Shown: in pieces, positions 6,322 to 24,660 of the stretch | How the letters are laid out: the number at the start of each line of letters is the position of its first letter | How positions within the stretch are numbered: the stretch's first letter is position 1 | Assembly (NCBI RefSeq): GCF_002754245.1 | Contig: NZ_PEEX01000001.1 | Span: 3,142,001 to 3,206,000 of the forward strand | Source: Chryseobacterium sp. 52 | GTDB lineage: Bacteria; Bacteroidota; Bacteroidia; Flavobacteriales; Weeksellaceae | DNA: 64,000 nt | Direction of reading: 5' to 3' | Notes under the pieces: model-generated | What the model was told of the DNA's origin: nothing | The model's input: only the letters and a program-made list of their open reading frames with translations | Databases searched by the model: none | Translations under genes and position numbers: made by a program

Positions 6322-7419
6322 TTAAATATTTTCAAAGTTTTTGCCCAAATGTTCTTCGATGACAAAGAACGGATCTTCTGTAAGCGTGTGGGCTCTCATT
6401 TCCATAAGGCTCACTTTGCTCATCATACGAAGCATAATTCTTCTCTGGCAACTGTGTTCTACACCGTTGATGTTTCTTACTCCGGCACGGAAAGCAGATC
6501 TTCCGTGAGCACACAAATGGTTATTAACCAATATAACATCGCCCGCCTGTGGTGTGAAACCTGAATAGATCAGATCTCTTGCCTCTTCCCAAAATTCATT
6601 CAGATGGTGATAGGCATCATCCGTCTGTTTAATACTTGGGTTGAACAGCTGTTCGGCTGCATCAAATCTCATAAATGGCAGTTCGTAGTTACCATACAAA
6701 ACAGCATCCAGTGCTTCTTCTTCTTCCATACCAGTTGCCAGATTGGCATCTTTCGGGATTTTATACATACGCTCAAAAAGAGGTCTGAAATTTTCTCCGA
6801 TAGACTCGTGAGAACGGATAGAATATAGAGTAGAAGGGACCTGTTCCTCATTACGGATATACATAAAACTTAAAAAGTCTGCCTGATGTTTCAGGAAAGC
6901 ATCTTCCGTATGTACATAAAGATCTGTGGCAGATCCTGATCCGGTCTGAGTTTCCCGCATTTTTTCATCCGGAATAATGGCATGCATCAATCCACCTCCT
7001 TTGCGCTGGGAATAGTATTGTACCGGCTTGGAAGGTAGCGCGCCATGTATCAGTGCACAGGCAAAACCATAGATATCGAATTTTGAATAATCTGCAGACT
7101 GCCAGTTAGCAGGAGTATTCCCGATATTTTCCTGATCAATATCCATTAATCCCTTAAATACCAGTGCTCCGTACTGATTTTTTGAAAAATCGCTCGCAAA
7201 ATCAGCAGCTATATGTAAAATCCTTTCGGGTAAAAAATAAGAAGCCAGCTGATGAACGTGAGTAATAAAATCTCTGCTTTCATAGCTGCCATATTTTCTC
7301 TGAAGATGCACCGCCGCATCTTGTATCATTCTTCTTTCCTGAGGTGTGATCTCAATGACTCTGGGAAGCAGTTTTACCGCAGTAATACTGTCGTTATCTA
7401 AAATTTCTAGCGAATTCAT
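6322..7419 (-). CDS. Fe(II)/2-oxoglutarate oxygenase, probable L-lysine 4-hydroxylase
   Basis: A 365-residue clavaminate synthase-like oxygenase. I use the ATG at 7419 (MNSLEILDND); the open frame further upstream runs through the promoter region. The metal ligands are visible as VHTED (H170, E172) and CAHGRS (H305), the HxE...H triad of this subgroup, with QRRIMLR near residue 326 for 2-oxoglutarate. Characterised members include arginine and asparagine beta-hydroxylases, and a Bacteroidota branch of L-lysine 4-hydroxylases. Because the divergent operon makes a citrate siderophore with a decarboxylase and a lysine-type N-monooxygenase, hydroxylation of lysine before decarboxylation to 3-hydroxycadaverine is the best fit. 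Substrate and position are inference. Its promoter overlaps a Fur-box-like site. Confidence 0.82.
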   Translation of the reverse strand: MNSLEILDNDSITAVKLLPRVIEITPQERRMIQDAAVHLQRKYGSYESRDFITHVHQLASYFLPERILHIAADFASDFSKNQYGALVFKGLMDIDQENIGNTPANWQSADYSKFDIYGFACALIHGALPSKPVQYYSQRKGGGLMHAIIPDEKMRETQTGSGSATDLYVHTEDAFLKHQADFLSFMYIRNEEQVPSTLYSIRSHESIGENFRPLFERMYKIPKDANLATGMEEEEALDAVLYGNYELPFMRFDAAEQLFNPSIKQTDDAYHHLNEFWEEARDLIYSGFTPQAGDVILVNNHLCAHGRSAFRAGVRNINGVEHSCQRRIMLRMMSKVSLMEMRAHTLTEDPFFVIEEHLGKNFENI

Positions 7420-7430
7420 TAAAAAAATAT

Positions 7431-7459
7431 TTGGTGTGTGAATATAATTTTTATATTTG
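7431..7459 (+). promoter_or_regulatory. Promoter of the siderophore operon
   Basis: TTG at 7431-7433, an 18-bp spacer, and TATATTTG at 7452-7459 match the flavobacterial TTG-N17-23-TAnnTTTG promoter. It would give a leader of about 170 nt before the decarboxylase ATG at 7636. A Fur-box-like site lies just downstream. Confidence 0.55.
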
Positions 7460-7464
7460 TTTTT

Positions 7465-7479
7465 AATTATTCTAAATAA
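7465..7479. promoter_or_regulatory. Fur-box-like operator 1
   Basis: AATTATTCTAAATAA is the reverse complement of TTATTTAGAATAATT. The same AGAATAATT/GGAATAATT core recurs at 7496-7509 and twice in front of the IutA-like receptor at 24633. The site covers the predicted transcription start of the operon, as expected for iron-dependent repression. Assignment to Fur rests on the recurrence at iron genes only. Confidence 0.5.
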
Positions 7480-7491
7480 CAATAGACGGTT

Positions 7492-7521
7492 CAAATTTAG
7501 GAATAATTTATCAATCACCAA
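7492..7521 (-). promoter_or_regulatory. Promoter of the oxygenase gene with Fur-box-like site 2
   Basis: On the minus strand TTG (complement of 7519-7521), a 19-bp spacer, and TAAATTTG (complement of 7492-7499) form a TAnnTTTG promoter reading toward the oxygenase at 7419. TTTAGGAATAATTT at 7496-7509, a match to the operator core seen at 7465, lies inside the spacer. This would tie the oxygenase to the same iron control as the operon. Confidence 0.5.
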
Positions 7522-7564
7522 ATAAAAACTTGAAAAAATGTAGAAAATAAAAACTTGACTATCA

Positions 7565-7584
7565 GGCATATATAACTATATGCC
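7565..7584. promoter_or_regulatory. Palindromic operator candidate
   Basis: GGCATATA and TATATGCC form a perfect 8-bp inverted repeat around TAAC, 52 bp before the decarboxylase ATG. No U run follows, so it is more likely a protein site or a 5' leader hairpin than a terminator. The binding protein is unknown. Confidence 0.45.
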
Positions 7585-7635
7585 ATCCAATCACATCCAA
7601 CTTATTGATCTAAAAAATCACCTTACAAATACCAT

Positions 7636-9162
7636 ATGAACAACAATCAAATGCCCGCCGGAGACATCCTGGGCGCTTCCTTACCTCACATTTCGGGGAA
7701 TTTTGGAAATATTTTTCATTCTGACAATTATGATCATTATCGTTCCGCTGTCAACGACACTTTAGAGCTCGTAGGAACATTTCTTCATAGAAATGATAAA
7801 CCCTTCAGCGGAATCGAAGCCAAAGAAATGAAAGGAATGGTACAGCAGATAGACCTTAATCAAAAACTATCTTCTTACCAGGAGCTTCTTCAGGAGGTAG
7901 ATACTATATATGTAAAGCATGCTACTGCTTTTCACCTTCCACAATATGTGGCACACCTTAACTGTCCTGTCGTAATTCCTGCACTGGCTGGAGAAATCCT
8001 TGTAAGTGCCATCAATTCTTCACAGGATACCTACGACCAAAGTGCCGGAGGAACATTCATGGAAAGAAAACTGATCGACTGGACTGCTGAACAGATAGGA
8101 TATAATGCAGAAACAAGCGACGGTGTTTTCACCGCAGGTGGATCACAGAGTAACTTAATGGGACTGGTTATGATGCGTGACTGTTTTTCCCAGAAAAGAT
8201 ACAATCATAATATCAAACTGGACGGTCTTCCACAAGAGGCAGGACGATTCAGAATCTTTGTTTCTGACAAATCACATTTCAGCAATTTAAAAAATGCCTC
8301 GATCATGGGATTGGGCGAAAAAAGTATCGTTAAAGTTCCTACAGATGAAAGATTCTGTATGGATATCACTTTACTGAAAAAATACATCAAAAGAGAGGAG
8401 CAGTTGGGGAATATCCCTATCGGAATTGTAGCTACTGCAGGAACGACAGACTTTGGAAACGTAGATCCTTTGGAAGATATCGCCAATATTGCAGAACAGT
8501 ACAATATCTGGATGCACGTAGACGCCGCTTATGGATGTGCCTTATTATTAAGCGAAAAATACCGTTATCTTCTGAATGGTATAGAAAGAGCAGATTCGGT
8601 GACGATAGATTATCATAAATCATTCTTCCAGCCCATCAGCAGCAGTGCTTTCATCGTTAAAGATAAAAGAGAATTAAGAATCCTTAAACACCATGCAGAC
8701 TATCTGAATCCGGTAGAAATGGACGAAGAAGAGATTCCTGCACAAATCAACAAATCCATTATACAGAGTACCCGTAGATTCGATGCTTTGAAGCTTTGGT
8801 TTACGTTAAGAATGATGGGGAAAGAACAGCTTTCCGAATACACCGATACAGTAATAGACCTTACCAAAGATGTGGCGTCTATGATTGAAGAAAATCCTGA
8901 TTTTGAATTGCTTTCTGACACTGACCTGAGCGTTCTGGTTTTCCGTTACATAAGAACAGATATCGAAGACCTGAATGCTTTGAACCAGTATATCAAAATG
9001 AAGCTTTTCTACAGCGGAGAAATTCTGGTTGCAAGCACAAAAGTAGACGGAGATTTCTACCTGAAGTTTACTTTCCTTAATCCAATCACGACGACAGAAG
9101 ATGTACACCAAATTTTAAACACAATAAAATCACATGGAGAAGACTTTGGTACAGCAAACTAA
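7636..9162 (+). CDS. PLP-dependent amino-acid decarboxylase (siderophore diamine synthesis)
   Basis: A 508-residue group II decarboxylase, of normal length for the L-2,4-diaminobutyrate/tyrosine decarboxylase family. Visible sites are TAGTTDFGNVDP near 268, HVDAAYG (D296 binding the pyridine nitrogen), and DYHKSFFQ with H327 and the PLP lysine K328. In NIS siderophore operons such enzymes make the diamine backbone. The neighbouring lysine-hydroxylase-like gene suggests lysine or hydroxylysine as substrate, giving cadaverine or hydroxycadaverine. It is the first gene of the operon; its last 29 nt overlap the next gene. Confidence 0.87.
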   Translation: MNNNQMPAGDILGASLPHISGNFGNIFHSDNYDHYRSAVNDTLELVGTFLHRNDKPFSGIEAKEMKGMVQQIDLNQKLSSYQELLQEVDTIYVKHATAFHLPQYVAHLNCPVVIPALAGEILVSAINSSQDTYDQSAGGTFMERKLIDWTAEQIGYNAETSDGVFTAGGSQSNLMGLVMMRDCFSQKRYNHNIKLDGLPQEAGRFRIFVSDKSHFSNLKNASIMGLGEKSIVKVPTDERFCMDITLLKKYIKREEQLGNIPIGIVATAGTTDFGNVDPLEDIANIAEQYNIWMHVDAAYGCALLLSEKYRYLLNGIERADSVTIDYHKSFFQPISSSAFIVKDKRELRILKHHADYLNPVEMDEEEIPAQINKSIIQSTRRFDALKLWFTLRMMGKEQLSEYTDTVIDLTKDVASMIEENPDFELLSDTDLSVLVFRYIRTDIEDLNALNQYIKMKLFYSGEILVASTKVDGDFYLKFTFLNPITTTEDVHQILNTIKSHGEDFGTAN

Positions 9163-11560
9163 GTTGACAGAAAAAGCACAGGAAATAACAGTCCGGATCC
9201 TGCTGAACGGCATGCTCCGCGAGATTGGAAACGGAAAGTTTTATCAGGGAGTTCCAAAATATGACAGCCTTACTGCTGAAGCTTTACAGAACAGTACGTA
9301 TCCGCTGCATATCAGGTTTGAACTGAAGAAAAGCGAGGTCTTTTTATTTGCCCCCGTTTCTTACCGCTCTGAAAGTGCTTTCCATGATTATGGAACGGCT
9401 TTATGGGTAGTTGATCATAAAAATCAGAAGGTTTCTGAACCGGATGTTGATCAGCTTACCGAATTGGTTTACCGAGAGCTTTCTGAACAGTTCAGTCAGA
9501 AAGGCCTTGATTTATTCACCAAAAGAATTCACAGCAGCCTTAGGAATCTTGAAATGATCATGCAAGAAGGTTTACAGGATAAAGACGCTTTAACCTATTC
9601 TTTCCTGGAATCTGAACAACAGCTTCCGGTAGGACATAACCTCCATCCTTTTACAAAAGCAAGAATGGGGTTTTCCAGAGAAGAACAGCTTCTTTACGGT
9701 CCGGAATTCAACAGAGGAATTCAGTTGGAATATTTTCTGGTGAATAAAAATTCTGTTCAGGAAAATTCTGTTTTAGATATACCATACAGCGAATTTCTGG
9801 AAGAAATTGTTTCATTACCCGAAGACCTGGAACCGGATTATTTAATAGAAGGTGAAAAACGCTCAGACTTTTATGTCGTTCCTTGCCATCCCTGGGAAGC
9901 CAGCTATCTTTTATCTACGGAAAACGGTTCGGAAATGATCAGTAACCGTACTTTAATTCACATTGGAGCTTTAGGAGAAGAATTTTATTCAACATCTTCT
10001 ATAAGGAGTATGTACAGCGCGGATATTCCATGGATGCCTAAGTTTTCTTTAAATGTTCTTCTGACAGGTTCAATAAGAATCAATACGGAAAAGGATTTAA
10101 AAAGAGGCTATGCATCAGCGTTGTGGCGCAAACATGCAGGAGCATCATTTGAAAAGGATTTTAATCAGTTTAAATTACTTTTAGAACCTGTTACATTAGG
10201 TGTTTATCATAACGATAAAAATATTGAAAGCCTTAATCTGCTGATCCGTGAAAATCCATTTTTGCCGGAAGATAAAATCCTTCTCCTGGCGAGACTGTGT
10301 CAGGACGAACCGGCGAACGGGCAAAACTTCGTACAGCAGTTCTTTAAAGATGTTTCCGGGAAACTGGGAACCGGACTGGAAGAATCTGTGACCATCTGGT
10401 TTGAAAAGTATATCAAATTACTGATTACTCCTTTAAATCATTTGTTCAGCCACTACGGGATGGCCCCTGAAGCACACCAGCAGAACCTTCTGATCAAACT
10501 GGATGATCAATTGCTTCCTCAGACGCTTTATGTGAGAGATGCCCAGGGATATCTGTTAAAAGAAAGTGCAAGAGAACAGTACATTGATCTGGCTAAAGAA
10601 TATCCGGAAATTGAAGATCTTTTCATCAGAGATGAACGTCTTTTGGATATTATCTCTTATCACGTACTGGTCAGCAACCTTTCCGCACTTATTGCCTCAT
10701 TAGGAAAAACCGGATGGGCAAGCGAAAGGGCTCTTATCAATATACTGCATAATGAGTTTGAGCAAATTCATCAGCATACCCCTTCCGATTTCACCCGATA
10801 TGCCCTTAAAAACCGTCATTGGGGTACCAAAACAAACTTTAAGGCTGTCGCCAATGAAATTGACGGAATTACCAGCGCAGGAGCGATTTCTTATGCTAAA
10901 GTTCCCAATCTTCTTTACCAGTATTATTTTTCAGATCAACTGATCCAGCCGAAAGGAAAAGAGGTCTTTTTCAGCCGTTATTTCCAGAAAGATGATGTCA
11001 CGATCACCATGAGGCCGATGGACCTTGATGAAGATCTTGAAATGCTTCATGAATGGTTTAACCGTGAACATGCGATCAAGATCTGGCAGATGAACTGGCC
11101 CATTGATGAACTGGAAACGTATTACCGTCTGATGCTTCCGAGCGATGAATCTCACAGTTATATTGTACTGAGCAATGGTGAACCTTCATGTAATATTGAA
11201 GTGTACTGGCCGTGCAGAGATATTGTAGGAGACTATTATGAGGTAATGCCTACCGATTATGGAACTCACCAGTTTATAGCACCAACAGATCCGAAAAAGA
11301 AATTTGTTTCTCCTTCCACACAATCTATGGTAGATTATGTATTTGCTCAGCCGGAAGTTGGAAAAATGGTAGGGGAAGGTTCTGTAGATTCTCTGGCTTC
11401 GATGATGAATAAAGCACACGTTGGCTTCAAAGTCGATAAAGTCATTGAAATGCCTCACAAAAAAGCCAATCTGAATTTCTGCTACAGAGAATGGTATTGG
11501 GAAAAATTCCCTCAGAACAAAGATGTAGAATTCACCGTAAAAATCACTGAACATGAATAA
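9134..11560 (+). CDS. NIS siderophore synthetase fused to an N-acyltransferase
   Basis: An 808-residue two-domain protein. Residues about 1-610 are an IucA/IucC-type synthetase: HPFTKARMGF (171-180), VPCHPWE near 250, SSIRSMYS near 290, and EAHQQN near 445 are the conserved ATP and citrate/substrate blocks. Residues about 620-808 are a GNAT domain of the IucB/RhbD/AlcB type (ITMRPMDLDEDLEMLHEWFN; Pfam-style siderophore acetyltransferase), which in known systems acylates the N-hydroxylated amine to a hydroxamate. The synthetase domain condenses a carboxylate such as citrate with that product. In aerobactin and rhizobactin 1021 the two activities are separate proteins. It overlaps both neighbours, so translation is probably coupled. 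Confidence 0.88.
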   Translation: MEKTLVQQTKLTEKAQEITVRILLNGMLREIGNGKFYQGVPKYDSLTAEALQNSTYPLHIRFELKKSEVFLFAPVSYRSESAFHDYGTALWVVDHKNQKVSEPDVDQLTELVYRELSEQFSQKGLDLFTKRIHSSLRNLEMIMQEGLQDKDALTYSFLESEQQLPVGHNLHPFTKARMGFSREEQLLYGPEFNRGIQLEYFLVNKNSVQENSVLDIPYSEFLEEIVSLPEDLEPDYLIEGEKRSDFYVVPCHPWEASYLLSTENGSEMISNRTLIHIGALGEEFYSTSSIRSMYSADIPWMPKFSLNVLLTGSIRINTEKDLKRGYASALWRKHAGASFEKDFNQFKLLLEPVTLGVYHNDKNIESLNLLIRENPFLPEDKILLLARLCQDEPANGQNFVQQFFKDVSGKLGTGLEESVTIWFEKYIKLLITPLNHLFSHYGMAPEAHQQNLLIKLDDQLLPQTLYVRDAQGYLLKESAREQYIDLAKEYPEIEDLFIRDERLLDIISYHVLVSNLSALIASLGKTGWASERALINILHNEFEQIHQHTPSDFTRYALKNRHWGTKTNFKAVANEIDGITSAGAISYAKVPNLLYQYYFSDQLIQPKGKEVFFSRYFQKDDVTITMRPMDLDEDLEMLHEWFNREHAIKIWQMNWPIDELETYYRLMLPSDESHSYIVLSNGEPSCNIEVYWPCRDIVGDYYEVMPTDYGTHQFIAPTDPKKKFVSPSTQSMVDYVFAQPEVGKMVGEGSVDSLASMMNKAHVGFKVDKVIEMPHKKANLNFCYREWYWEKFPQNKDVEFTVKITEHE

Positions 11561-12869
11561 TGAAACCATATATAACGTGATCGGAATAGGGATCGGTCCT
11601 TTTAACTTAGGACTGGCCGCCTTATCCAATCCGATTTCTGAACTGAAAACACTTTTCTTAGATCAAAGAGATGGCTTCGACTGGCATCCGGGATTAATGA
11701 TCGACCACGTCACACTGCAAACCCCATTTTTATGTGATTGTGTGTCAATGGCAGATCCTACCAATCCTTTGAGCCTTTTGAATTATCTTAAAGAAACCAA
11801 CAGGTTGTATAAATTCTTTATCAGGGAAGATTTCTTCATTCCCCGTAAAGAATATAACCGTTATTGCCAGTGGGTAGTGAGCCAGCTGCCTCAGTGCCGT
11901 TTCTCCACGCAGGTAGTAGATATTATCTATGAAGACGGACTTTATCTGATCACCACTGTTCATACCAAAACTAAAGAAGCGGTAGTTTACAAAGCGGAAA
12001 GACTGATTCTGGGAACAGGAACACAGCCACATATGCCTTCATTTATTCCGAAAGATGATTCCCGTATTCTTCATACGAGCTCATATCTGTATCGTAAAGA
12101 AGAACTTTTAGCTCAGGGTAAAAAAATTGCCGTAATTGGTTCAGGACAGAGTGCTGCAGAGGTTTTCTATGATTTATTGCAAAGCCGTGATGAAAATACA
12201 CAATTAGGCTGGTATTCCCGTCCGGACCGTTTTTTCCCGATGGAATATTCTAAACTGACGCTTGAGCTTACTTCTCCTGACTATGTAGACTATTTTTTCA
12301 GCAGGGATGAAGCAGCGCGTAAAACGATCTTAAGCAAGCAGCAAGCCCAATTTAAAGGGATCAATTATGACTTGATCAACCAGATCTATGATTTTATCTA
12401 CGATCTGAATATTGATAATGCTGATCCAAAGCTGACGATTATTCCAAACAGCCAGTTGGATAAAGTAGATAACAGCAGTATGGAAAACCTTACTCTTGAA
12501 TTCACTCAGTTGGAACAGGAAGTTCCTTATGAGCAGGAAGCCGATTATCTGGTGATGGCAACAGGATACCGTTATCATGAACCTTCATTTTTAAAGAACA
12601 TTGAATCTAGGATTAAAAGAGATTCAAGCGGTTTATTTGCGGTTAACAGAAACTATTCCATAGACCATAACGGTGGTGAAATTTATGTACTTCATGCGGA
12701 AGTACATACCCACAGCTATATCTCTACAGATTTAGGAATGGCGGCTTACCGAAACTCTTACATCATAAACGATATTCTTGGAAGAGAGCATTATAAAATC
12801 GAAAAGAAAATAGCTTTCCAGGATTTTGATGTAGAAAAACATGCTGCAATGCCAACTGTCAAAATGTAA
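11553..12869 (+). CDS. L-lysine/diamine N6-monooxygenase (IucD/SidA family)
   Basis: A 438-residue flavin N-hydroxylating monooxygenase. The FAD site GIGIGPFNLGLAAL is at residues 11-24, the NADPH site IAVIGSGQSAAEVF near 190, and the C-terminal ATGY motif reads LVMATGYRYHEP. It hydroxylates the terminal amine of lysine, ornithine or a diamine using NADPH and O2, preparing the hydroxamate. In this setting N-hydroxylation of (hydroxy)cadaverine is likely. It overlaps the preceding gene by 8 nt. Confidence 0.9.
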   Translation: MNNETIYNVIGIGIGPFNLGLAALSNPISELKTLFLDQRDGFDWHPGLMIDHVTLQTPFLCDCVSMADPTNPLSLLNYLKETNRLYKFFIREDFFIPRKEYNRYCQWVVSQLPQCRFSTQVVDIIYEDGLYLITTVHTKTKEAVVYKAERLILGTGTQPHMPSFIPKDDSRILHTSSYLYRKEELLAQGKKIAVIGSGQSAAEVFYDLLQSRDENTQLGWYSRPDRFFPMEYSKLTLELTSPDYVDYFFSRDEAARKTILSKQQAQFKGINYDLINQIYDFIYDLNIDNADPKLTIIPNSQLDKVDNSSMENLTLEFTQLEQEVPYEQEADYLVMATGYRYHEPSFLKNIESRIKRDSSGLFAVNRNYSIDHNGGEIYVLHAEVHTHSYISTDLGMAAYRNSYIINDILGREHYKIEKKIAFQDFDVEKHAAMPTVKM

Positions 12870-12873
12870 TACA

Positions 12874-14688
12874 ATGAATACCCATTTAAATAACAATACA
12901 ATCAGCCGGGAAATCTGGCTGCAGGCCAACAGAGATCTTATGGCCAAGACGTTTGCAGAATTAATGCATGAAGAACGTTTGAAACCTATCGCTGTCCTTC
13001 AGGATGAATCTGGATTTACAGTCTTTAAGCTTGAAACCGGAGTAGAAAACATTCAATACAGTTTCCGTGGTCAGGAAAGAATGATGGATTACTGGCATAT
13101 TGATACAACCAGTATTGAAAAAACAGAGAACGGCGTAAAAACGACAGCTCTGAATATTCCTGAGTTCTTTCTAGAGATGCAAACTGTATTCGATCTTGAC
13201 TCCAATACACTGGCAAGATATACCGAAGAATTGCTGCATACTTTATATTGCGATGCTCTGATTTTATCAAGAGGTGTTATGTGTTCAAAAGATCTGGCAG
13301 CAAGTAACTATCAGACGGTAGAACATCAGATGACAGGACATCCGTGGGTGATTGTCAATAAAAGCAGATTAGGATTTTCTCCTGCCGATCTTCAAACATA
13401 TGCTCCGGAAGCAGGACAGGATCTAAAAGTTCTATGGCTGGCTGCTCACAAAGACAGATCTGCTTTCCAGTCATTGGAACATATCGATAAAGACGGTTTT
13501 TACCGCTCTGAAATCGGAGACGAACTGTATGAAGAATTTCAGCAAAAGCTTATCAATGATGGGAAATCTGTTGAAGATTACAACTTCATTCCTGTACATC
13601 CCTGGCAATGGGAAAACAAGTTGAAAATCCACTTTGCAGGAGATATTGCCTCTGAAATCTTAATTCTTTTAGGAGCAGGAAATGATATCTACAGTCCGCA
13701 ACAGAGTATCCGTACTTTATTTAATACAGATCATCCTGAAAAAAGATATCTGAAAACGGCAGTTTCTATCTTAAGTACAGGAAATATCAGAGGACTTTCG
13801 CCTAAGCAGATGAAAATCGCTCCGTCTATTACAGATTGGGTAAAAGGTTTAATCAAAGGTGATGCTTATCTGGAAACAAAAGGGACTATATTCTTGGGAG
13901 AAGAAGCTTCTATTGCTTATCTGCATCCTCAGTACAGTGCTATTGCCGGAGTTCCTTATCAGTATAATGAATTTTTAGGTGCTTTATGGCGCGAAAGTGC
14001 TTCCAATTATTTACAGGAAGATGAAGAAATATTTACCATGGCTTCACTGCTTTTTGTAGATCAAAATGGAGTTCCTTTGGTACAGGCTTTTGCTGAAAAA
14101 GCAGGAATCAGTATCAAACAGTGGATCAAAGATTATCTTGATGCCTACCTTACACCGCTGCTTCATATCTATTATACCCATTCTCTTTGTGTAACACCTC
14201 ACGGAGAAAACATTATGGTGGTATTAAAGAACGGAGTGCCGCAGAGAATTGTGATCAAAGATTTTGTGGATGATATCGTCCTGACTGTAGAAGCAAGAGA
14301 AAAACTTCCGGATCATCTGGCAGACGGATTGATTCAGTCTTCGAACAAAGAAAATGTTCCGTTATCTATTCTTTTGGGAGTTTTTGATGCGTTCTTCAGA
14401 TACCTGTCGAATGTACTGCATACCCATTCTGACTTTAAAGAAGAAACATTCTGGATGCTTGTTCATGACTGTATAGAGAACTATAAAAATCATAATCCAC
14501 ATCTGAATGAACGTTATGAAAAATATGATCTGTATGTTCCTACATTTAAACGATTCTACATCAACAGTCTGCGTTTGAAAAACAACGGCTATAGTGAAAA
14601 CAAAGCATTTGCTATTCCAAAGAAAGACGGTGCTTTACCGAATCCTTTGTATCAGATTGCTAATAAAAATTCTGTAGCGGCCGTATGA
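12874..14688 (+). CDS. IucA/IucC-family NIS siderophore synthetase
   Basis: A 604-residue stand-alone NIS synthetase; I use the ATG at 12874, 5 nt after the previous stop, rather than the in-frame codon at 12841 inside the monooxygenase gene. Conserved blocks are TGHPWVIVNKSRLGFSP near 145, FIPVHPWQWE near 240, SIRTLFN near 285, CVTPHGENIMVVL near 442, and VIKDFVDDIV. It is probably the second condensation enzyme, joining another amine arm to the citrate intermediate. The last 4 nt overlap the MATE gene. Confidence 0.9.
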   Translation: MNTHLNNNTISREIWLQANRDLMAKTFAELMHEERLKPIAVLQDESGFTVFKLETGVENIQYSFRGQERMMDYWHIDTTSIEKTENGVKTTALNIPEFFLEMQTVFDLDSNTLARYTEELLHTLYCDALILSRGVMCSKDLAASNYQTVEHQMTGHPWVIVNKSRLGFSPADLQTYAPEAGQDLKVLWLAAHKDRSAFQSLEHIDKDGFYRSEIGDELYEEFQQKLINDGKSVEDYNFIPVHPWQWENKLKIHFAGDIASEILILLGAGNDIYSPQQSIRTLFNTDHPEKRYLKTAVSILSTGNIRGLSPKQMKIAPSITDWVKGLIKGDAYLETKGTIFLGEEASIAYLHPQYSAIAGVPYQYNEFLGALWRESASNYLQEDEEIFTMASLLFVDQNGVPLVQAFAEKAGISIKQWIKDYLDAYLTPLLHIYYTHSLCVTPHGENIMVVLKNGVPQRIVIKDFVDDIVLTVEAREKLPDHLADGLIQSSNKENVPLSILLGVFDAFFRYLSNVLHTHSDFKEETFWMLVHDCIENYKNHNPHLNERYEKYDLYVPTFKRFYINSLRLKNNGYSENKAFAIPKKDGALPNPLYQIANKNSVAAV

Positions 14689-16088
14689 GAAAGCTTCTGC
14701 ATCTTGTAAAAGAAGGCTCTGTATTTGCGTACGGAGCTTTAGCGGGAAAAAAAGTAGAACTTACCTCGGGGAGTATTAACCGTTCTATCTTTAGCCTGGC
14801 CATTCCTATGGTCATGGAGCTGGTGATGGAATCTGTTTTTGTCAGTATCAATCTTTTAATCATAGCAAGATTGGGAGATAAAGTCCTTGGGCTTGTAGGA
14901 ATCGCAGATAATTATATCAATTTTGCCAATGCAATTGCTATTGGACTCGGTATAGCTGCTGCAACATTGACCGCAAGGAGAGCCGGGGAAAAAGACCATG
15001 AAGGGATGAGCCAAACGGCTCATTATATCATACTGCTGGCATCTGCTTTTGCTTTGCTCATTGGCGGTTTGTCATTTCTTTTCGCCGGTGAAATCATCAG
15101 CTTCCTGGGATTCAATACAGATATTGTAGCCAACGGGCTTCCTTTTTCCAAGCTGGTCTTTTTAAGCATCGGTTTGGTAATTCTGCGTCTTTCTATTAAT
15201 GGACTTTTCAGGGGTGCCGGAGATGCCGACCTTGCTATGAAATCTCTTTGGCTTTGTCATATCTCAAGTATGGTCTTTGCTGTAATTCTTGTTTTTGGAC
15301 TTGGTTTTATCCCAGCTTATGGATTGATGGGGTTGGCTTATGCTACTATTTTATCCCGCCTGTTAGCTGTTTTATACCAGTTCTTTATTCTTATTACGCG
15401 CAGAACCAGTGTCAATATCCTTGTGAAATTTCATCTGGATATGCCTTTGTTTAAGAAAATACTGAAGATCGCTTTTGGAGGACTTGTTCAGTATATTATT
15501 CCTGCCTCCAGTTGGCTGATTATGGTTAAAATTATAGCCACTTTCGGAACTACCGCTCTTGCCGGGTATATTATTGCGCAGAGAATTGCCTCTGTAGCAA
15601 CAATGCCTGCCTGGGGAATTGGGAATGCTGCCGGTGTTCTTACAGGACAGAATCTGGGAGCCGGAAATCCGGACCGCGCAGAAAAAACAGTATGGAGGGC
15701 AGGAGGAATCAATATGACTTATCTTGTGGCTGTTGCCTTATTCTGGCAGTTCGCAGCGGAATATGTCGTAACGTTCTTCACCAAGGAAGCTGAAGTAGCC
15801 CGCTACGCGGTTCAGTACATCCATGTGGTATCTATGGCGTATCTCTTATTAGGTTTTACGATGGTGATCAGCCGGGCGCTTAATGCAGCCGGCAATATTA
15901 TGCAGGTAACGCTGCTGTATATGATCATGTTCTATGTTATTCAGCTTCCTTTAGCTTACCTGCTTGGAGTAAGGCTTCAATGGGAACTGAAAGGAATATT
16001 TACAGCTATTGTTTCCTCGGAAATCGTACTGGCTGTATTATTCTTACTGATCTTCAAAAATGGTAAATGGAAAACTATAAAAATTTAA
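14685..16088 (+). CDS. MATE-family exporter, probable siderophore efflux
   Basis: A 467-residue membrane protein with about 12 hydrophobic segments and the two-lobe MATE layout (SLAIPMVMELVMESVF at residue 35; LKIAFGGLVQYIIPASSW near 258). GIGNAAGVLTGQNLGAGNPDRAEK near 305 is the conserved loop of the second half. MATE proteins export cationic compounds by Na+ or H+ antiport. Its place in the middle of the biosynthesis operon, with an ATGA overlap, argues for secretion of the finished siderophore. Confidence 0.87.
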   Translation: MRKLLHLVKEGSVFAYGALAGKKVELTSGSINRSIFSLAIPMVMELVMESVFVSINLLIIARLGDKVLGLVGIADNYINFANAIAIGLGIAAATLTARRAGEKDHEGMSQTAHYIILLASAFALLIGGLSFLFAGEIISFLGFNTDIVANGLPFSKLVFLSIGLVILRLSINGLFRGAGDADLAMKSLWLCHISSMVFAVILVFGLGFIPAYGLMGLAYATILSRLLAVLYQFFILITRRTSVNILVKFHLDMPLFKKILKIAFGGLVQYIIPASSWLIMVKIIATFGTTALAGYIIAQRIASVATMPAWGIGNAAGVLTGQNLGAGNPDRAEKTVWRAGGINMTYLVAVALFWQFAAEYVVTFFTKEAEVARYAVQYIHVVSMAYLLLGFTMVISRALNAAGNIMQVTLLYMIMFYVIQLPLAYLLGVRLQWELKGIFTAIVSSEIVLAVLFLLIFKNGKWKTIKI

Positions 16089-16089
16089 A

Positions 16090-16335
16090 ATGCACACAAC
16101 AGACGAATTTTATGAAATTATCGCATCAGCAATCGCTGTAAAAAAAGAACTGGTAGACGAAAACCTAACCTATCAGGAAATCCCTGAATGGGATTCTATG
16201 TCCCACCTGCTTATTGTAGAAGCATTGGAACAGTTCTACCGGGTAAAGTTTGATTTTAACGACATCCTTGAAATGGGAACCGTTGGAAAAATCCGCGAAA
16301 AAATGAAAAAATACGATGTACTCGTAGAAAACTAA
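16090..16335 (+). CDS. Acyl carrier protein
   Basis: An 81-residue acidic helical protein with the phosphopantetheine site DSM at residues 35-37 (S36 would carry the 4'-phosphopantetheine arm), preceded by EIPEWDSMSHL and followed by helix II LLIVEALEQFYRV. It starts 1 nt after the exporter stop and 4 nt before the adenylating ligase, so ligase and carrier form a natural loading pair. A carrier protein is not needed by a standard NIS pathway. It may present an acyl group (fumarate, succinate or a fatty acid) to the acyltransferase domain; that is inference. Confidence 0.85.
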   Translation: MHTTDEFYEIIASAIAVKKELVDENLTYQEIPEWDSMSHLLIVEALEQFYRVKFDFNDILEMGTVGKIREKMKKYDVLVEN

Positions 16336-16339
16336 GTAT

Positions 16340-17728
16340 ATGAAAATTTTAGAAAATGTAATTGCCAACAAGAACTTGTTGTTTACAGATGCTTCCAACG
16401 GTGCCACCACACCGATTGGAACCCTGTACCGGTCTTTAGGCTTAAATCCTGTAGAAAAAGGATTGATCTTTTTGTACAACGACAATCAGCTGCCCGGCAT
16501 TGAGGTTCTCCTCAATTTTTATGGAACGGCCCATGCTATTGCTCTTTTGGGACAAAAAATGCATCCGGACTTCAAAGAGCGCCTGGAAGCAGAATACCGT
16601 CCGAAATATATCTTTGATCCTTCAAGAGATGAGGTTCAGGGATATATTCTGAAGAAATTCTCGGAAACCGTGAAAATCTTTGCTAAAGAAGATTATCAGC
16701 CCGAGGTTAATATTCACCCTGAAATCAAGATCCTGTTAAGTACTTCCGGAACCACCGGAGTGCCGAAGCTGGTGAAGCTTTCAGATGAAAACCTTTATCA
16801 GAACGCTGTAAGTATTCTTCAATACATGCCCATCCTGGAATCTGATGTAGTTCCGCTAAACGTACCGATTAATTTCGTGTACGGATTTTCTATTTTTACG
16901 ACCAACTGTATGCACGCGGGAAGAATAGTTTGTACCGACAAAGACATCATGCAGAAAGCGTTCTGGGATGAAATGGAAGAGTATGGATACAGCACGCTGG
17001 GAGGCGTTCCGTATCTGTACGAAAACCTCAACAGAATAGGCTTCTTCAGAAAAGACAGTAAGAGCCTGAGGTATATGACCCACACGGGAGGTGTAATCAA
17101 TGGTGAGTTGAGAAAAACACTCTTCAATTACTGTCATGAATTTGAAAAGCAGTTCTTTGCCCAATACGGACAGACCGAAGCAGGCGGAAGGATGGCTTAT
17201 CTTACAACAGACGGGCTTCTTGAAGAGGAAACCTCTATCGGGACTCCTGTAAACGGAGGAAGTTTTGAGATAGATCCTGAAACGGATGAACTGCTCTTCT
17301 TACATTCAAGCATCAGTGGCGGCTATGCCAATACGCTTCAAGATCTGGCGACTTATGAACAGCCAAAAGTTCTTCGTACAGGAGATACGGCAAGAATAGG
17401 CTCGAACGGACTTTATTACATCACAGGAAGAATCAAAAGGATCATGAAGCTTTTCGGTATCCGTCTTAACCTGGATGAGGTAGAGTTTATCCTTAAAAAT
17501 GAGCTGGAAGGAAATACGTTTGTCTGTCTGAATTCCAATGATAAAAAAATCATTGTTTTGTATGACAACCTCGAAATTGATCCCCAGATCATTACAGAAG
17601 CTATTAAGAATAAACTGCGCATCAATCCGCAGTACGTACGTACCGAACACATAGAATCATTTCCATTATCACAAAACGGTAAAATCAACTATCCACTGTT
17701 ACAAAACTTACAGCATGAAAATATTTAA
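16340..17728 (+). CDS. Adenylate-forming acyl ligase (AMP-binding)
   Basis: A 462-residue ANL-superfamily enzyme. The P-loop is LSTSGTTGVPKLVKLS near residue 135, A5 is QYGQTEAGGRM near 275, A7 is LRTGDTARIGSNG near 346, and A8/hinge is ITGRIKRIMKLFGIRLNLDEVE near 360. The C-terminal subdomain ends QNGKINYPLLQN, which holds the A10 lysine. It should activate a carboxylic acid as an adenylate and load it on the ACP encoded just upstream. It is shorter than typical NRPS A domains and closer to stand-alone acyl-ACP ligases. The acid is unknown. It overlaps the receptor gene by 14 nt. Confidence 0.85.
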   Translation: MKILENVIANKNLLFTDASNGATTPIGTLYRSLGLNPVEKGLIFLYNDNQLPGIEVLLNFYGTAHAIALLGQKMHPDFKERLEAEYRPKYIFDPSRDEVQGYILKKFSETVKIFAKEDYQPEVNIHPEIKILLSTSGTTGVPKLVKLSDENLYQNAVSILQYMPILESDVVPLNVPINFVYGFSIFTTNCMHAGRIVCTDKDIMQKAFWDEMEEYGYSTLGGVPYLYENLNRIGFFRKDSKSLRYMTHTGGVINGELRKTLFNYCHEFEKQFFAQYGQTEAGGRMAYLTTDGLLEEETSIGTPVNGGSFEIDPETDELLFLHSSISGGYANTLQDLATYEQPKVLRTGDTARIGSNGLYYITGRIKRIMKLFGIRLNLDEVEFILKNELEGNTFVCLNSNDKKIIVLYDNLEIDPQIITEAIKNKLRINPQYVRTEHIESFPLSQNGKINYPLLQNLQHENI

Positions 17729-20177
17729 AACCCCTATATTACTTTTATTTCTTGTCGGTCTTCCACTATTTGTTTCTGCCCAGCAGAATGAACGCGTAAA
17801 CGGCAAGGTTATGCTGTCTGAAAAAGTGCCCGTGAAGAATGCACTTTTAAGGTTAGTTAATACGCCATATCAGGCAAAAACCAATAGTTTAGGAGAATAT
17901 TACTTTGATAATGTGCCGCCAGGAGAATATACACTTCAGGTCGTTTTAAATGATATCGAACTTACACGGGAATCTATTCGCATTGAGAAAGACGTCTATG
18001 AAATCCCGGTTATTTATTCTACAACAGAGAACAATGTTATTGAAGGGATTACCGTATATGCTTTTAGCAGAAACAAATTTTTGGATAGAGACAGTACTTC
18101 AATCTCTAAAATGCCGTTGAAAAGCATCGAAAATCCCCAGTTCTACACAAGTATTAATCAGCAGATCCTGAAGGAGCAACTTATTTATGATGTTTCTGAC
18201 GCTTTAAAAAACGCTCCGGGTGTTGTAAAAATGCAGGGAAGTGCAGGTAGAGCGGGAGACGGAAGTTTTTATTATAATTTAAGAGGTTTTCCTACCAGGG
18301 TTTCTATGGTAGATGGTGTTCCTGCGACTACCAACTCAGAAATTGATCCTGCGGATATTGAACGTATGGACGTCATCAAAGGACCTTCCGGAACTTTGTA
18401 CGGAGGTGCAGTTAATTCTTTTGGAGGATTAATTAGTGTAGTGACGAAAAAACCTAAAGATTACTTCGGGGGAGAAGCGTCTTACCTTATGGGAAGCTAC
18501 AATCTGAACCGTGTGACCGCTGATGTTTATGGTCCAATCACCAATTCAAGAAAAACGTTGTTCCGTTTGAATGCAGCCTACCAGTATCAGAACGGATTCA
18601 GAGATTCTGAGTTTAGAAAATCGATGTTCGTTGCTCCGACACTTAGTTATCAGGTTGATGACCGATTAAAGTTCAGTTTGGGAGCACAGATTTACACTTA
18701 TGAAGGAACGAATACTCCCATCATCTTTTTGCCAAGAACCAGGCCATTCATTGCAACCACTCCGGATGAGCTTGGATATGACTGGAAAAGATCATATTCC
18801 AATAATGACATGAGCTTAAAAGCACCTTCCATCAATGTAAAAGCTGAGGTTAATTACAAAATTTCAGATCAGTGGAGTTCTCAGACTTTGATCTCAAGAA
18901 ATTACAGAAAAACGGAAGGATTGTATCAGTATCAGTTCATGAGAGGAGATACCGATAATATTCTAGAGCGTAATGTACAGTGGCAGAATGGCGAGGGAGC
19001 CTCTACCAGCATTCAGCAGAACTTTAACGGGGAATTTAAAATTGGGAAAATCAAAAATAAACTTCTTATTGGGTTAGATTATTTAAACCAATCTTTGAAT
19101 AATAACCTTTCTCCAATTGTTGCCTTTGACAGGATTGATGGTAAGAATATTACAGCACCAGTGGGAGGAGGAGTGACAGGGATTTATGGAGTTATATCCA
19201 AAGATCTGGCACTTAAGAGAATACAGGATGTTACTGAAGCTGCTATCAAATTGAATAAAAATCCTTTTGTAAGAAATACAGCATCAAGCAATATGTATGG
19301 AGCTTATGTTTCTGATGCGGTATATATTACGGACCGTTTGGTTGCTTTACTAAGTTTACGTTTTGATCATTATGAAAGTAAAGGACAGGTTGATCTAAAT
19401 ACTAATGCCAATACAGGAACATTCAATCAGAATGCACTGTCTCCAAAATTTGGTTTATCCTATCAAATCTTTAAAGACCGTTTATCAGCATACGCTAACT
19501 ATATGAATGGTTTCAGTAATGTAGTTCCGGTTGCACAGCCGCTTGCGGACTATAGTGGAGATTTCAAACCGCAGAGGTCTAATCAGTGGGAAGTGGGATT
19601 CAAAGGAAATCTTTGGAGAAACAGAGTGAATTTCACAGTAGGATATTATGATATTCTGGTTGACAATATGTTAAGAGCAGATATCGTGAGTAGAGGCGGA
19701 ACAAGCTATAATGTGACTATCCAGGACGGAGAGCAGAGAAGTAAAGGGATCGAAATTGAAACGATTCTGAACCCTATCCAAGGGCTAAACATTATGGCGG
19801 GATATTCTTACAATGACAGTAAATTCGTAAAAGCTGCTGCCAATGTAGATGGTCGTCGTCCGTCATCTTCAGGTCCTGCAAATGTATTCAATTCATGGGT
19901 GAGCTACGTATTGCCGATCAAAGGACTTTCGGGTCTCGGATTAGGTTTTGGAGTCAACCGTGTTGGAGAACAGATTAGTGTGGATACTGTTACTACCGGA
20001 CAGTTTATATTCCCTTCTTATACTTTAATTAATGCGTCGGTATCTCTTGAAAAAGAAAGATACAGGTTAGGATTTAAAATGAATAATTTAGGAAATGCAC
20101 AGTATTTTGCCGGACAGGGCGTTGTTGTAGCTCAAATGCCTCGTAACTTTGTTGCTGAGGTTAGTCTTAAATTTTAA
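17715..20177 (+). CDS. TonB-dependent siderophore receptor
   Basis: An 820-residue outer-membrane receptor. A Sec signal peptide ends at VSAQ near residue 23, followed by a carboxypeptidase-regulatory-like domain (about 27-105: VNGKVMLSEKVPVKNALLRL...PPGEYTLQV), a plug (about 145-250, with IERMDVIKGPSGTLYGG), and a 22-strand-type barrel that ends LPRNF/VSLKF with a terminal Phe. The plug motifs resemble the FhuE/FpvA siderophore subfamily. Being co-transcribed with biosynthesis genes, it is the likely importer of the ferric form of the siderophore made here. Confidence 0.9.
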   Translation: MKIFKTPILLLFLVGLPLFVSAQQNERVNGKVMLSEKVPVKNALLRLVNTPYQAKTNSLGEYYFDNVPPGEYTLQVVLNDIELTRESIRIEKDVYEIPVIYSTTENNVIEGITVYAFSRNKFLDRDSTSISKMPLKSIENPQFYTSINQQILKEQLIYDVSDALKNAPGVVKMQGSAGRAGDGSFYYNLRGFPTRVSMVDGVPATTNSEIDPADIERMDVIKGPSGTLYGGAVNSFGGLISVVTKKPKDYFGGEASYLMGSYNLNRVTADVYGPITNSRKTLFRLNAAYQYQNGFRDSEFRKSMFVAPTLSYQVDDRLKFSLGAQIYTYEGTNTPIIFLPRTRPFIATTPDELGYDWKRSYSNNDMSLKAPSINVKAEVNYKISDQWSSQTLISRNYRKTEGLYQYQFMRGDTDNILERNVQWQNGEGASTSIQQNFNGEFKIGKIKNKLLIGLDYLNQSLNNNLSPIVAFDRIDGKNITAPVGGGVTGIYGVISKDLALKRIQDVTEAAIKLNKNPFVRNTASSNMYGAYVSDAVYITDRLVALLSLRFDHYESKGQVDLNTNANTGTFNQNALSPKFGLSYQIFKDRLSAYANYMNGFSNVVPVAQPLADYSGDFKPQRSNQWEVGFKGNLWRNRVNFTVGYYDILVDNMLRADIVSRGGTSYNVTIQDGEQRSKGIEIETILNPIQGLNIMAGYSYNDSKFVKAAANVDGRRPSSSGPANVFNSWVSYVLPIKGLSGLGLGFGVNRVGEQISVDTVTTGQFIFPSYTLINASVSLEKERYRLGFKMNNLGNAQYFAGQGVVVAQMPRNFVAEVSLKF

Positions 20178-20179
20178 TA

Positions 20180-21349
20180 ATGAACCCTACATTTAGAAAA
20201 GTAACATATCAAATACATCTATGGCTCGGACTAACGTCCGGGCTTATAGTTGTAATAATGGCAGCTACAGGATGTATTCTCGCTTTTGAAAAAGAACTGA
20301 AACATGCCATACATCCGGAAAAATATTTTGTTAAAATCATAAAAAAAGAAAAACTACAGTTTTCTGAACTGAAACTGAAAGCTGAACTGGCATTACCGGA
20401 CAATCTTAAGGTCAGCAGGGTGGAAATATCCTCAGATCCTTACAGAAGTTACGCATTCCGCTCTTTAAAAATGAATAAAGAAGCCTGGAACTACTGGGAT
20501 TCTTATATTCATTATTACAGAGTGTATGTAGATCCTTACACCGGAAAAGTTCTGGAAGTGGAAAATGCAAAAAATGATTTTTTTGAGATCGTTATGGATC
20601 TTCACCGAAGGCTTTTACTGGGTGAGAAAATAGGTAAAACAATTACAGGATATTCCACACTGATATTGGCCATTATGCTTTTTTCAGGATTAGTAATCTG
20701 GTTTCCCCGTAAAATAAACAAGAATGCTTTGAAGGGAATGTTTTTTATTAAAACATCAGCCAAATGGAAAAGAGTCAACTATGATATGCACAATGTCTTA
20801 GGTTTTTATGCCGTTATTCCACTCTTGCTTATTTGTTACGCCGCTTTAATATGGAATTTTGAAGAGGTAGACAAATGGGTCAAAAAAACACTGAACGGAA
20901 AAGCAAAGACTGAACAGAAAGCCAAAAGTACAATCCCTTCAGGAGAATCATCAGATTCAAAAAATATTCTGGATATAGTAGGGAATAGGGTAGAGAAAAG
21001 CCTGACTGATAAAAAATCAGCACTCATCAGTTTTCCAAAGACGGAAGAAGGAACCTATTATGCTGAGGCAACATATGGCAACAAGCATTACCAGAATGAG
21101 CAGTTTACTTTTGATCAGTATTCAGGTAAAATATTAAAGTATCAATCTTATAAAGACAAAAATATTGGATACGGAACGGCACTAAGAGAAAGAAATTATG
21201 ACCTTCATACGGGAAGTATTTTCGGAATGACAGGGCGTTTTTTATATCTTTTTGCAGGTATGATTGCAGCTTCCCTTCCCATCACAGGATTCATCATTTA
21301 TTTGAACAGAAAAAAGAAGAAACCAAAGAAAAAGAAAGTGAAATTATAA
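20180..21349 (+). CDS. PepSY-associated membrane protein (PiuB-like), probable siderophore reductase
   Basis: A 389-residue inner-membrane protein with four hydrophobic segments: IHLWLGLTSGLIVVIMAATGC near residue 11, ITGYSTLILAIMLFSGLVIW near 155, VLGFYAVIPLLLICYAALIW near 207, and FLYLFAGMIAASLPITGFIIY near 352. A PepSY-like extracytoplasmic region carries histidines (HPEKYF, LHRRLLLG, LHTGSIFG). Family members such as FpvG and PiuB are linked to reduction and release of iron from ferri-siderophores in the periplasm. It follows the receptor by 2 nt and is the last gene of the operon. Confidence 0.85.
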   Translation: MNPTFRKVTYQIHLWLGLTSGLIVVIMAATGCILAFEKELKHAIHPEKYFVKIIKKEKLQFSELKLKAELALPDNLKVSRVEISSDPYRSYAFRSLKMNKEAWNYWDSYIHYYRVYVDPYTGKVLEVENAKNDFFEIVMDLHRRLLLGEKIGKTITGYSTLILAIMLFSGLVIWFPRKINKNALKGMFFIKTSAKWKRVNYDMHNVLGFYAVIPLLLICYAALIWNFEEVDKWVKKTLNGKAKTEQKAKSTIPSGESSDSKNILDIVGNRVEKSLTDKKSALISFPKTEEGTYYAEATYGNKHYQNEQFTFDQYSGKILKYQSYKDKNIGYGTALRERNYDLHTGSIFGMTGRFLYLFAGMIAASLPITGFIIYLNRKKKKPKKKKVKL

Positions 21350-24633: not shown

Positions 24634-24636
24634 TTA

Positions 24637-24660
24637 TTTGGAATAATTAAGAATAATTTG
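24637..24660 (-). promoter_or_regulatory. Fur-box-like operator of the receptor gene
   Basis: Two GAATAATT units (24641-24648 and 24651-24658), 10 bp apart, lie 7 bp upstream of the receptor start codon. The same core occurs between the oxygenase and the siderophore operon at 7465 and 7496, which supports shared iron control. Confidence 0.45.

Follow-up and report, generated by a model that had tools for sequence, protein, structure and literature searches.

Chryseochelins A to C are siderophores from Chryseobacterium that are built of citrate, 3-hydroxycadaverine and fumaric acid, and the hydroxylation of their diamine was called unique among cadaverine siderophores (Rehm et al. 2023, PMC9989332). 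Chryseochelin A has the formula C24H36N4O15 and yields a main fragment of m/z 233.113 (C9H17N2O5+), chryseochelin B contains an ester and chryseochelin C bears fatty acids of various lengths. For the producer strains CHR2, CHR5 and CHR6, 16S data gave the genus only, the term 'gene cluster' does not occur in the main text and its authors state that proof of the pathway requires further work (Rehm et al. 2023). The enzyme KDO5 is an L-lysine 4-hydroxylase whose structure is available as PDB 6EUO, and the main text of its structure paper makes no mention of siderophores (Bastard et al. 2018, PMC6224419). Neither a chryseochelin gene cluster nor a role of carrier protein-borne fumarate in siderophore synthesis was found in the literature searched, outside which lie most subscription journals and supplements. 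We describe here a locus in a window of 64,000 nucleotides of Chryseobacterium sp. 52 (positions 3142001-3206000 of a 5.3 Mb single-contig genome) that quite likely serves the biosynthesis, export and uptake of chryseochelin or of a very close analogue.

This assignment is based on the gene set, on a match of chemical formulae and on the genus that the window organism shares with the chryseochelin producers. Genes were taken from open reading frames (ORFs) and families were assigned by Pfam, NCBIfam and PDB sequence searches (Table 1). Nine forward-strand genes with an inter-gene spacing of -29 to +4 bp form an operon in the order decarboxylase, IucA-like synthetase-GNAT fusion, N-hydroxylase, type-C synthetase, MATE exporter, acyl carrier protein (ACP), ligase, receptor and PepSY protein, and the oxygenase gene is divergent from it. 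Because of this tight packing, and because the order of the biosynthetic genes is found again in other species, the arrangement is not due to chance. An initial annotation of this DNA had listed an oxygenase, a decarboxylase, two IucA/IucC domains, an acyltransferase, an N-monooxygenase, an exporter, a receptor and a PepSY protein, all of which are present at the places given for them. The list was nevertheless incomplete, since the ACP and ligase genes between exporter and receptor had been overlooked and the locus is larger than first described. The proposal that it encodes the chryseochelin pathway or a close variant is supported by homology, through the KDO5 match, the diamine-type N-hydroxylase and the desferrioxamine-type decarboxylase. 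The building blocks named in that annotation (citrate, 3-hydroxycadaverine and fumarate) are correct for chryseochelin (PMC9989332). The composition predicted from the genes, i.e. citrate plus two C9H16N2O5 arms minus two H2O, amounts to C24H36N4O15, which is the published formula of chryseochelin A.

Gene content, protein families, the conserved active site and the occurrence of the set in several genera are observed; the substrates, above all fumarate, and the order of the steps are what we infer from them. The KDO5-type oxygenase would hydroxylate L-lysine at C4 and the decarboxylase would convert 4-hydroxylysine to 3-hydroxycadaverine (1,5-diaminopentan-3-ol) and CO2. Since this molecule is symmetric, either of its amines could serve, and the flavin enzyme would N-hydroxylate one of them. 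The ligase would adenylate free fumarate and attach it to the ACP through its phosphopantetheine arm, from which the GNAT domain would move the fumaryl group to the hydroxylamine to give N-fumaryl-N-hydroxy-3-hydroxycadaverine. Condensation of a first arm with citrate would then fall to the IucA-like domain and that of a second arm to the type-C synthetase, an order drawn from the analogy with aerobactin and rhizobactin. The product would be exported by the MATE protein, and the ferric complex would return through the TonB-dependent receptor and the PepSY protein, the latter possibly acting in ferric-siderophore reduction or handling. The ester of chryseochelin B would require one synthetase to use the hydroxyl group.

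Table 1. Genes, domains and candidate regulatory site of the locus, in window positions (NIS: nonribosomal peptide synthetase (NRPS)-independent siderophore; PLP: pyridoxal phosphate).
Feature	Positions	Strand	Support or remark
KDO5-type Fe(II)/2-oxoglutarate L-lysine 4-hydroxylase	6322-7419	-	PDB 6EUO, E 5.2e-137; ORF extendable to 7569
AT-rich box, conserved, in the promoter region between the divergent genes; candidate Fur site	7462-7479	+	Kept in 11/11 aligned intergenic regions
PLP decarboxylase, predicted 4-hydroxylysine to 3-hydroxycadaverine	7636-9162	+	PF00282
IucA-like NIS synthetase (IucA/IucC-FhuF) fused to a C-terminal GNAT N-acyltransferase	9134-11560	+	PF04183, PF06276, PF13523
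GNAT domain of the fused protein	about 10949-11557	+	
Flavin N-hydroxylase, predicted diamine substrate	11553-12869	+	PF13434
Type-C NIS synthetase (IucA/IucC-FhuF; DesD/DfoC/AlcC-like)	12841-14688	+	PDB DesD, DfoC
MATE exporter	14685-16088	+	PF01554; TIGR00797 above cut-off
Stand-alone ACP, 81 amino acids	16090-16335	+	Profile, model, Foldseek
AMP-forming (AMP-binding) ligase, 462 amino acids, predicted fumarate:ACP ligase	16340-17728	+	PF00501
TonB-dependent siderophore receptor	17715-20177	+	TIGR01783 above cut-off
PepSY_TM membrane protein	20180-21349	+	PF03929

The window oxygenase shares 203 identities with KDO5 over 351 aligned columns, and 15 of the 16 residues named in two KDO5 papers for iron, 2-oxoglutarate and lysine contacts or for catalysis are identical in it. 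This homology supports the earlier reading that lysine is hydroxylated at C4, and the product predicted from membership of the KDO5 group is (4R)-4-hydroxy-L-lysine. The iron triad His-x-Glu...His is present (window H220, E222 and H355 for KDO5 H176, E178 and H312), as is Arg145 (window R189), which the KDO5 papers hold responsible for C4 selectivity by positioning C4 at the iron. The equivalents of the triad and of Arg145 are kept in all 63 KDO rows compared, a set that includes the window's own gene and counts some genomes twice. The sole change among the 16 residues concerns Tyr233, which is present in KDO5 of Flavobacterium sp. CF136 whereas the window enzyme has Leu277 there. Calculations propose that Tyr233 has a role in steering C4 selectivity, and their authors report that the Tyr233 couple is seemingly not conserved among lysine dioxygenases (PMC11066847), for which reason it was not treated as a defining feature. 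The position is Leu in 52 of the 63 rows, Tyr in nine, Met in one and a gap in one; if all members are C4 hydroxylases, Tyr233 cannot be a general C4 determinant of the KDO group. The KDO5 gene itself (351/351 amino acids, Flavobacterium sp. CF136; L103/L149) adjoins a locus of the window type, so that its natural role is probably siderophore synthesis. A likely natural role is thereby offered for an enzyme that has so far been a structural and biocatalysis subject in the KDO5 papers; a search for 'lysine 4-hydroxylase' with 'siderophore' found no paper in the literature searched, most subscription journals being outside it.

Enzymes for lysine C-hydroxylation, decarboxylation and diamine N-hydroxylation are all present by homology. 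The best PDB match of the decarboxylase is 5o5c, a putative desferrioxamine decarboxylase (458 bits, against 366 for the diaminobutyrate decarboxylase 2qma), and its best NCBIfam model is diaminobutyrate decarboxylase, with 373 bits under a cut-off of 900. The N-hydroxylase scores 427 bits with 6xbb, 424 with 5o8p, 381 with the putrescine N-hydroxylase 7us3 and 160 with the lysine hydroxylase MbtG; its best NCBIfam model is a putative histamine N-monooxygenase (388 bits, under a cut-off of 700). We take 6xbb to be the cadaverine hydroxylase DesB, 5o8p the cadaverine enzyme DfoA and 5o5c DfoJ; 5o8p entered the PDB as an L-lysine 6-monooxygenase of the desferrioxamine pathway. Because diamine hydroxylases match the N-hydroxylase best and MbtG scores far lower, decarboxylation probably precedes N-hydroxylation and the diamine would be made first. 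The two NIS synthetases are of complementary types, IucA-like and type-C. The fused protein matches IucA (5jm7, 158 bits) and also DfoC and MbtK in the PDB, and the type-C synthetase scores 418 bits with DesD and 417 with DfoC.

The ACP carries its predicted phosphopantetheine serine, Ser36, within the motif WDSMS. Its nearest PDB chain is a putative ACP (E 2.3e-5) and NCBIfam ACP models match it down to E 0.0018, below their cut-offs. With a profile, 29 of 29 PDB hits at E <= 0.01 are ACPs, and the 23 members of the ACP alignment (A2) all touch PF00550 at E <= 0.1. The structural model has a predicted local distance difference test score (pLDDT) of 88.9 and a four-helix fold, in which helix II (36-50) starts at the predicted phosphopantetheine serine, and its top Foldseek hits are ACPs. 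The genome contains four matches to the phosphopantetheinyl transferase family PF01648. In the adjoining ligase, core motifs that we take to be A3, A5, A8 and A10 were recognised by eye. Against the PDB, the ligase profile scores highest with a gramicidin A domain (92 bits), a D-alanyl carrier protein ligase (87) and an oxalyl-coenzyme A (CoA) synthetase (80), and a peptide synthetase is also among the best matches. The D-alanyl carrier protein ligase is likewise the top Foldseek match of the ligase model (pLDDT 76, weak at 35-59, 134-141 and 175-181), which served for fold confirmation only.

The searches detected a single acyltransferase domain in the locus. As the operon genes include no acid-activating machinery besides the ligase-ACP pair and chryseochelin carries fumarate, both proteins were assigned to this acid; they could supply its activation, a step that had no enzyme in the earlier scheme. 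The link to fumarate is thus drawn by elimination and by the match to a known molecule, and the substrate-directed comparisons (R284 of the ligase, CoA motif of the GNAT) did not discriminate. Across 38 loci with a ligase from outside Chryseobacterium, the GNAT domain has 68-80% identity, compared with 27-51% in five loci without ligase, and certain residues occur only in the 88 GNAT rows from ligase loci and in none of eight rows from the five other loci. A GNAT class as tight as this is consistent with a shared donor and acceptor. The IucA-like domain (window 9134-10948) reaches only 27-33% identity outside Chryseobacterium (37 loci), though the fused GNAT (10949-11557) keeps its 68-80%. Near ligase residue R284, T249 is found in 85, Q275 in 92 and G283 in 95 of 95 locus ligases, against A, M and A in three outgroup ligases; these polar differences are only suggestive, and the residues correspond presumably to positions known from A domains.

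The distribution of the genes was followed in a family sample of 148 genomes, in a phylum sample of 395 genomes and in a scan of named genomes with a ligase alignment. The ligase occurs in 11 of the 148 family genomes, i.e. in 10 of the 20 genomes listed for the same genus, counting that of the window, and in one of another genus. In the phylum sample, a full-length synthetase-GNAT match was found in eight of 12 genomes with any match, a ligase of more than 50% identity in seven, with weaker relatives in four more, and KDO in six. The distribution is nested: the six KDO genomes all fall within the seven ligase genomes and these within the eight synthetase-GNAT genomes. From the scan, the best 80 of at least 427 confirmed loci were kept, from Chryseobacterium, Elizabethkingia, Flavobacterium, [Flexibacter], Sinomicrobium, Flavivirga, Aquimarina, Niastella, Longitalea, Chitinophaga, Pedobacter and one Cyclobacteriaceae genome. 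Chryseobacterium lathyri and C. vrystaatense are among the named species that carry the locus. Within the 80 stretches, ACP, type-C synthetase and MATE matches are each found in 80, GNAT in 79, IucA-like synthetase in 78, N-hydroxylase in 77, decarboxylase in 76, receptor in 68, PepSY in 60 and KDO in 59. Being seeded by the ligase, the scan shows that ligases travel with the ACP and synthetases, and the phylum sample shows the frequency of ligase-free synthetases. The ACP adjoins the ligase in all 80 loci, each with an ORF containing WDS[MVI][ST], as well as in the window and in 14 of 14 loci of a separate genome sample that shares some genomes with the scan. The ACP-ligase stretch had no match in the one plasmid collection searched.

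Missing biosynthetic genes are confined to L122, on a short contig of a metagenome-assembled genome (MAG), to L131, at a stretch edge, and to the Pedobacter loci L126 and L127. The two Pedobacter stretches hold synthetases, GNAT, MATE, ACP and ligase with no decarboxylase or N-hydroxylase match; in both genomes an N-hydroxylase relative lies elsewhere, and the genome search detected no KDO. In genera other than Chryseobacterium, receptor and PepSY are matched weakly, and the receptor gene frequently sits on the opposite strand. KDO was absent from 21 of the 80 stretches and was recovered by whole-genome search in 12 of these 21, bringing it to 71 of the 80 genomes. By coordinates, and assuming the same contig, 10 of the 12 recovered genes lie directly beside the stretch, that of L131 about 4.5 kb off, and that of L098 not beside it. 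Since nine genomes with a ligase locus yielded no KDO, lysine hydroxylation seems optional in this locus family. Among three outgroup ligase loci, L143 (G175, 6482-8859), which by eye resembles a surface-polysaccharide locus, holds an ACP, a short-chain reductase and a ligase with 40% identity to that of the window. Such a pair fits the ACP as partner of this ligase family and hints at a candidate source of the ACP-ligase pair.

Several of these observations weigh against the chryseochelin assignment or its fumarate step. The chemistry is known from other strains, identified to genus, while the window organism was read from its genes. The nine genomes without a KDO match, at least two of them MAGs, carry the ligase locus all the same. 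Taken alone, the window ACP reaches only E 0.087 with PF00550, below the Pfam cut-off, and L143 is the only one of the three outgroup loci with an ACP match, L144 and L145 (ligase 32-34% identical) having no match to the window ACP. The best NCBIfam models of the ligase are generic CoA-ligase and adenylation models, and none of the 25 families shown reached its cut-off. The pocket residue R284, considered as a dicarboxylate marker, is present in all 95 locus ligases but also in the three outgroup ligases and was dropped. Loss of the EPDxRN stretch from the GNAT does not discriminate between an ACP and a CoA donor: the stretch is absent from the ligase-locus GNATs, yet also from the GNATs of L047, which is related, and of L048, in genomes without a ligase match. 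Finally, the nearest solved GNAT domain is that of DfoC, whose donor is a CoA ester.

The resemblance to DfoC also bears on the alternative that the locus makes chryseochelin with a ligase and ACP that handle the chryseochelin C fatty acid, in the manner of FadD33 and MbtL, and with a GNAT that draws on fumaryl-CoA from another source. Chryseochelin C does bear fatty acids, of differing lengths (PMC9989332), MbtL is an ACP for the mycobactin lipid moieties and FadD33 is named a fatty acyl-AMP ligase in a reference title (PMC5302061). The GNAT resembles the CoA-using DfoC and SidF as well as MbtK, and the NCBIfam hits of the ligase include models for long-chain fatty acid ligases (72 bits, below cut-off). 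The sole acyltransferase domain found is however needed for the hydroxamate step, no other acid-activating enzyme is encoded among the operon genes, and the ligase profile scores carrier protein-loading and oxalate enzymes at 80-92 bits against 66 for FadD13. The mixed chain lengths moreover suggest an unspecific acylation. A fatty acid on the ACP is improbable.

The same machinery might instead place another small acid (succinate, malate, malonate or similar) on the hydroxamate and give a new chryseochelin analogue. No tested sequence feature is specific for fumarate, and the ligase found with an ACP in the polysaccharide-like L143 implies that the family probably uses other acids. We nevertheless regard another acid as doubtful in this locus, since the chryseochelin of the same genus bears fumarate together with 3-hydroxycadaverine, the hydroxylation being called unique (PMC9989332), and since no desaturase or other tailoring gene is present in the operon. 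A citrate siderophore of the aerobactin or rhizobactin kind, with unmodified cadaverine and acetyl groups and an oxygenase serving elsewhere, finds a parallel in L047 (G082), a locus of the same genus with decarboxylase, synthetase-GNAT, N-hydroxylase and MATE in which no KDO, ACP or ligase was found. It is nonetheless very hard to reconcile with the conservation of KDO, ACP and ligase in the locus across genera and with the retention of all but one of the named KDO5 residues, and is given next to no credence.

The oxygenase gene probably starts at 7419 rather than at 7569. In the long ORF, similarity to 6EUO starts only at residue 64. Each of the 11 intergenic regions aligned (10 of Chryseobacterium and one of Elizabethkingia) has the ATG at 7419, and the stretch beyond it has one-base indels, all of which make 7419 the likelier start. 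This leaves 216 bp between the oxygenase and decarboxylase genes. The conserved AT-rich box in this region is a possible Fur site, judged by the Bacteroidota Fur consensus. Its core, TTATTCTAAATAA, occurs five times in the 5.3 Mb genome, against two for the reversed control; the neighbours of four genome hits were inspected by eye and no regulon is claimed. A second copy with two mismatches lies at window 24634-24651 on the reverse strand, directly upstream of the TonB receptor ORF 22402-24633, and is weak, at least two hits having arisen in 12 of 100 shuffles. The single-synthetase, siderophore-like set of L047 (10134-19207) lies near homologues of this receptor gene (85%) and of window gene 24897-26384 (78%). 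Since the gene order differs, a replacement of one set by the other at a single chromosomal position is no more than conjecture.

On a wider scale, we lean towards a siderophore family spread over the Bacteroidota, in which an NIS pathway took over an ACP-ligase pair related to that of polysaccharide-like L143. The pair would load a TCA-cycle acid, fumarate, for a hydroxamate formation that depends on ACP, the lysine 4-hydroxylase being optional. If so, loci without the hydroxylase (e.g. those of Flavobacterium tructae and F. collinsii) should make dideoxy-chryseochelin, C24H36N4O13, with [M+H]+ 589.234. The locus scan identifies genomes of Flavobacterium, Niastella, Chitinophaga and Pedobacter that are predicted to encode the same siderophore family. 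Chryseochelin biosynthesis was left open by its discoverers (PMC9989332), and an enzyme is proposed here for each building step. The assignment of ACP and ligase to the fumarate arms points to carrier protein-bound fumarate as a donor for siderophore hydroxamates.

Compared with known systems, the desferrioxamine enzymes 5o5c, 5o8p and 5o7o (the record of the last names dfoC) come first or near-first for the window decarboxylase, N-hydroxylase, type-C synthetase and GNAT. We know of no citrate, hydroxylated diamine, ACP or ligase in the desferrioxamine system. Petrobactin, with AsbC and AsbD, resembles the window locus as an NIS locus with an AMP ligase and a carrier protein, which put an aryl acid on spermidine to give a catecholate rather than a hydroxamate. 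The composition of the mycobactin acylation set was reportedly described in 2006 (Krithika 2006). To our knowledge, the step of dapdiamide synthesis catalysed by DdaG involves no carrier protein. DdaG, a stand-alone adenylating amide synthetase for the fumaramoyl scaffold, is likened here by description only (PMC12568646). The mycobactin set combines a ligase (FadD33/MbtM), a stand-alone ACP (MbtL) and a GNAT (MbtK) for a hydroxamate siderophore (PMC5302061). Mycobactin uses fatty acids and an NRPS, whereas the window locus would use a C4 dicarboxylate with NIS synthetases; it works like the mycobactin acylation set and is not a member of that system. The chryseochelins are known from chemistry and the window locus from genes alone, and the two meet in the same genus, where citrate, 3-hydroxycadaverine, fumarate and the formula fit the gene set of the window (PMC9989332).

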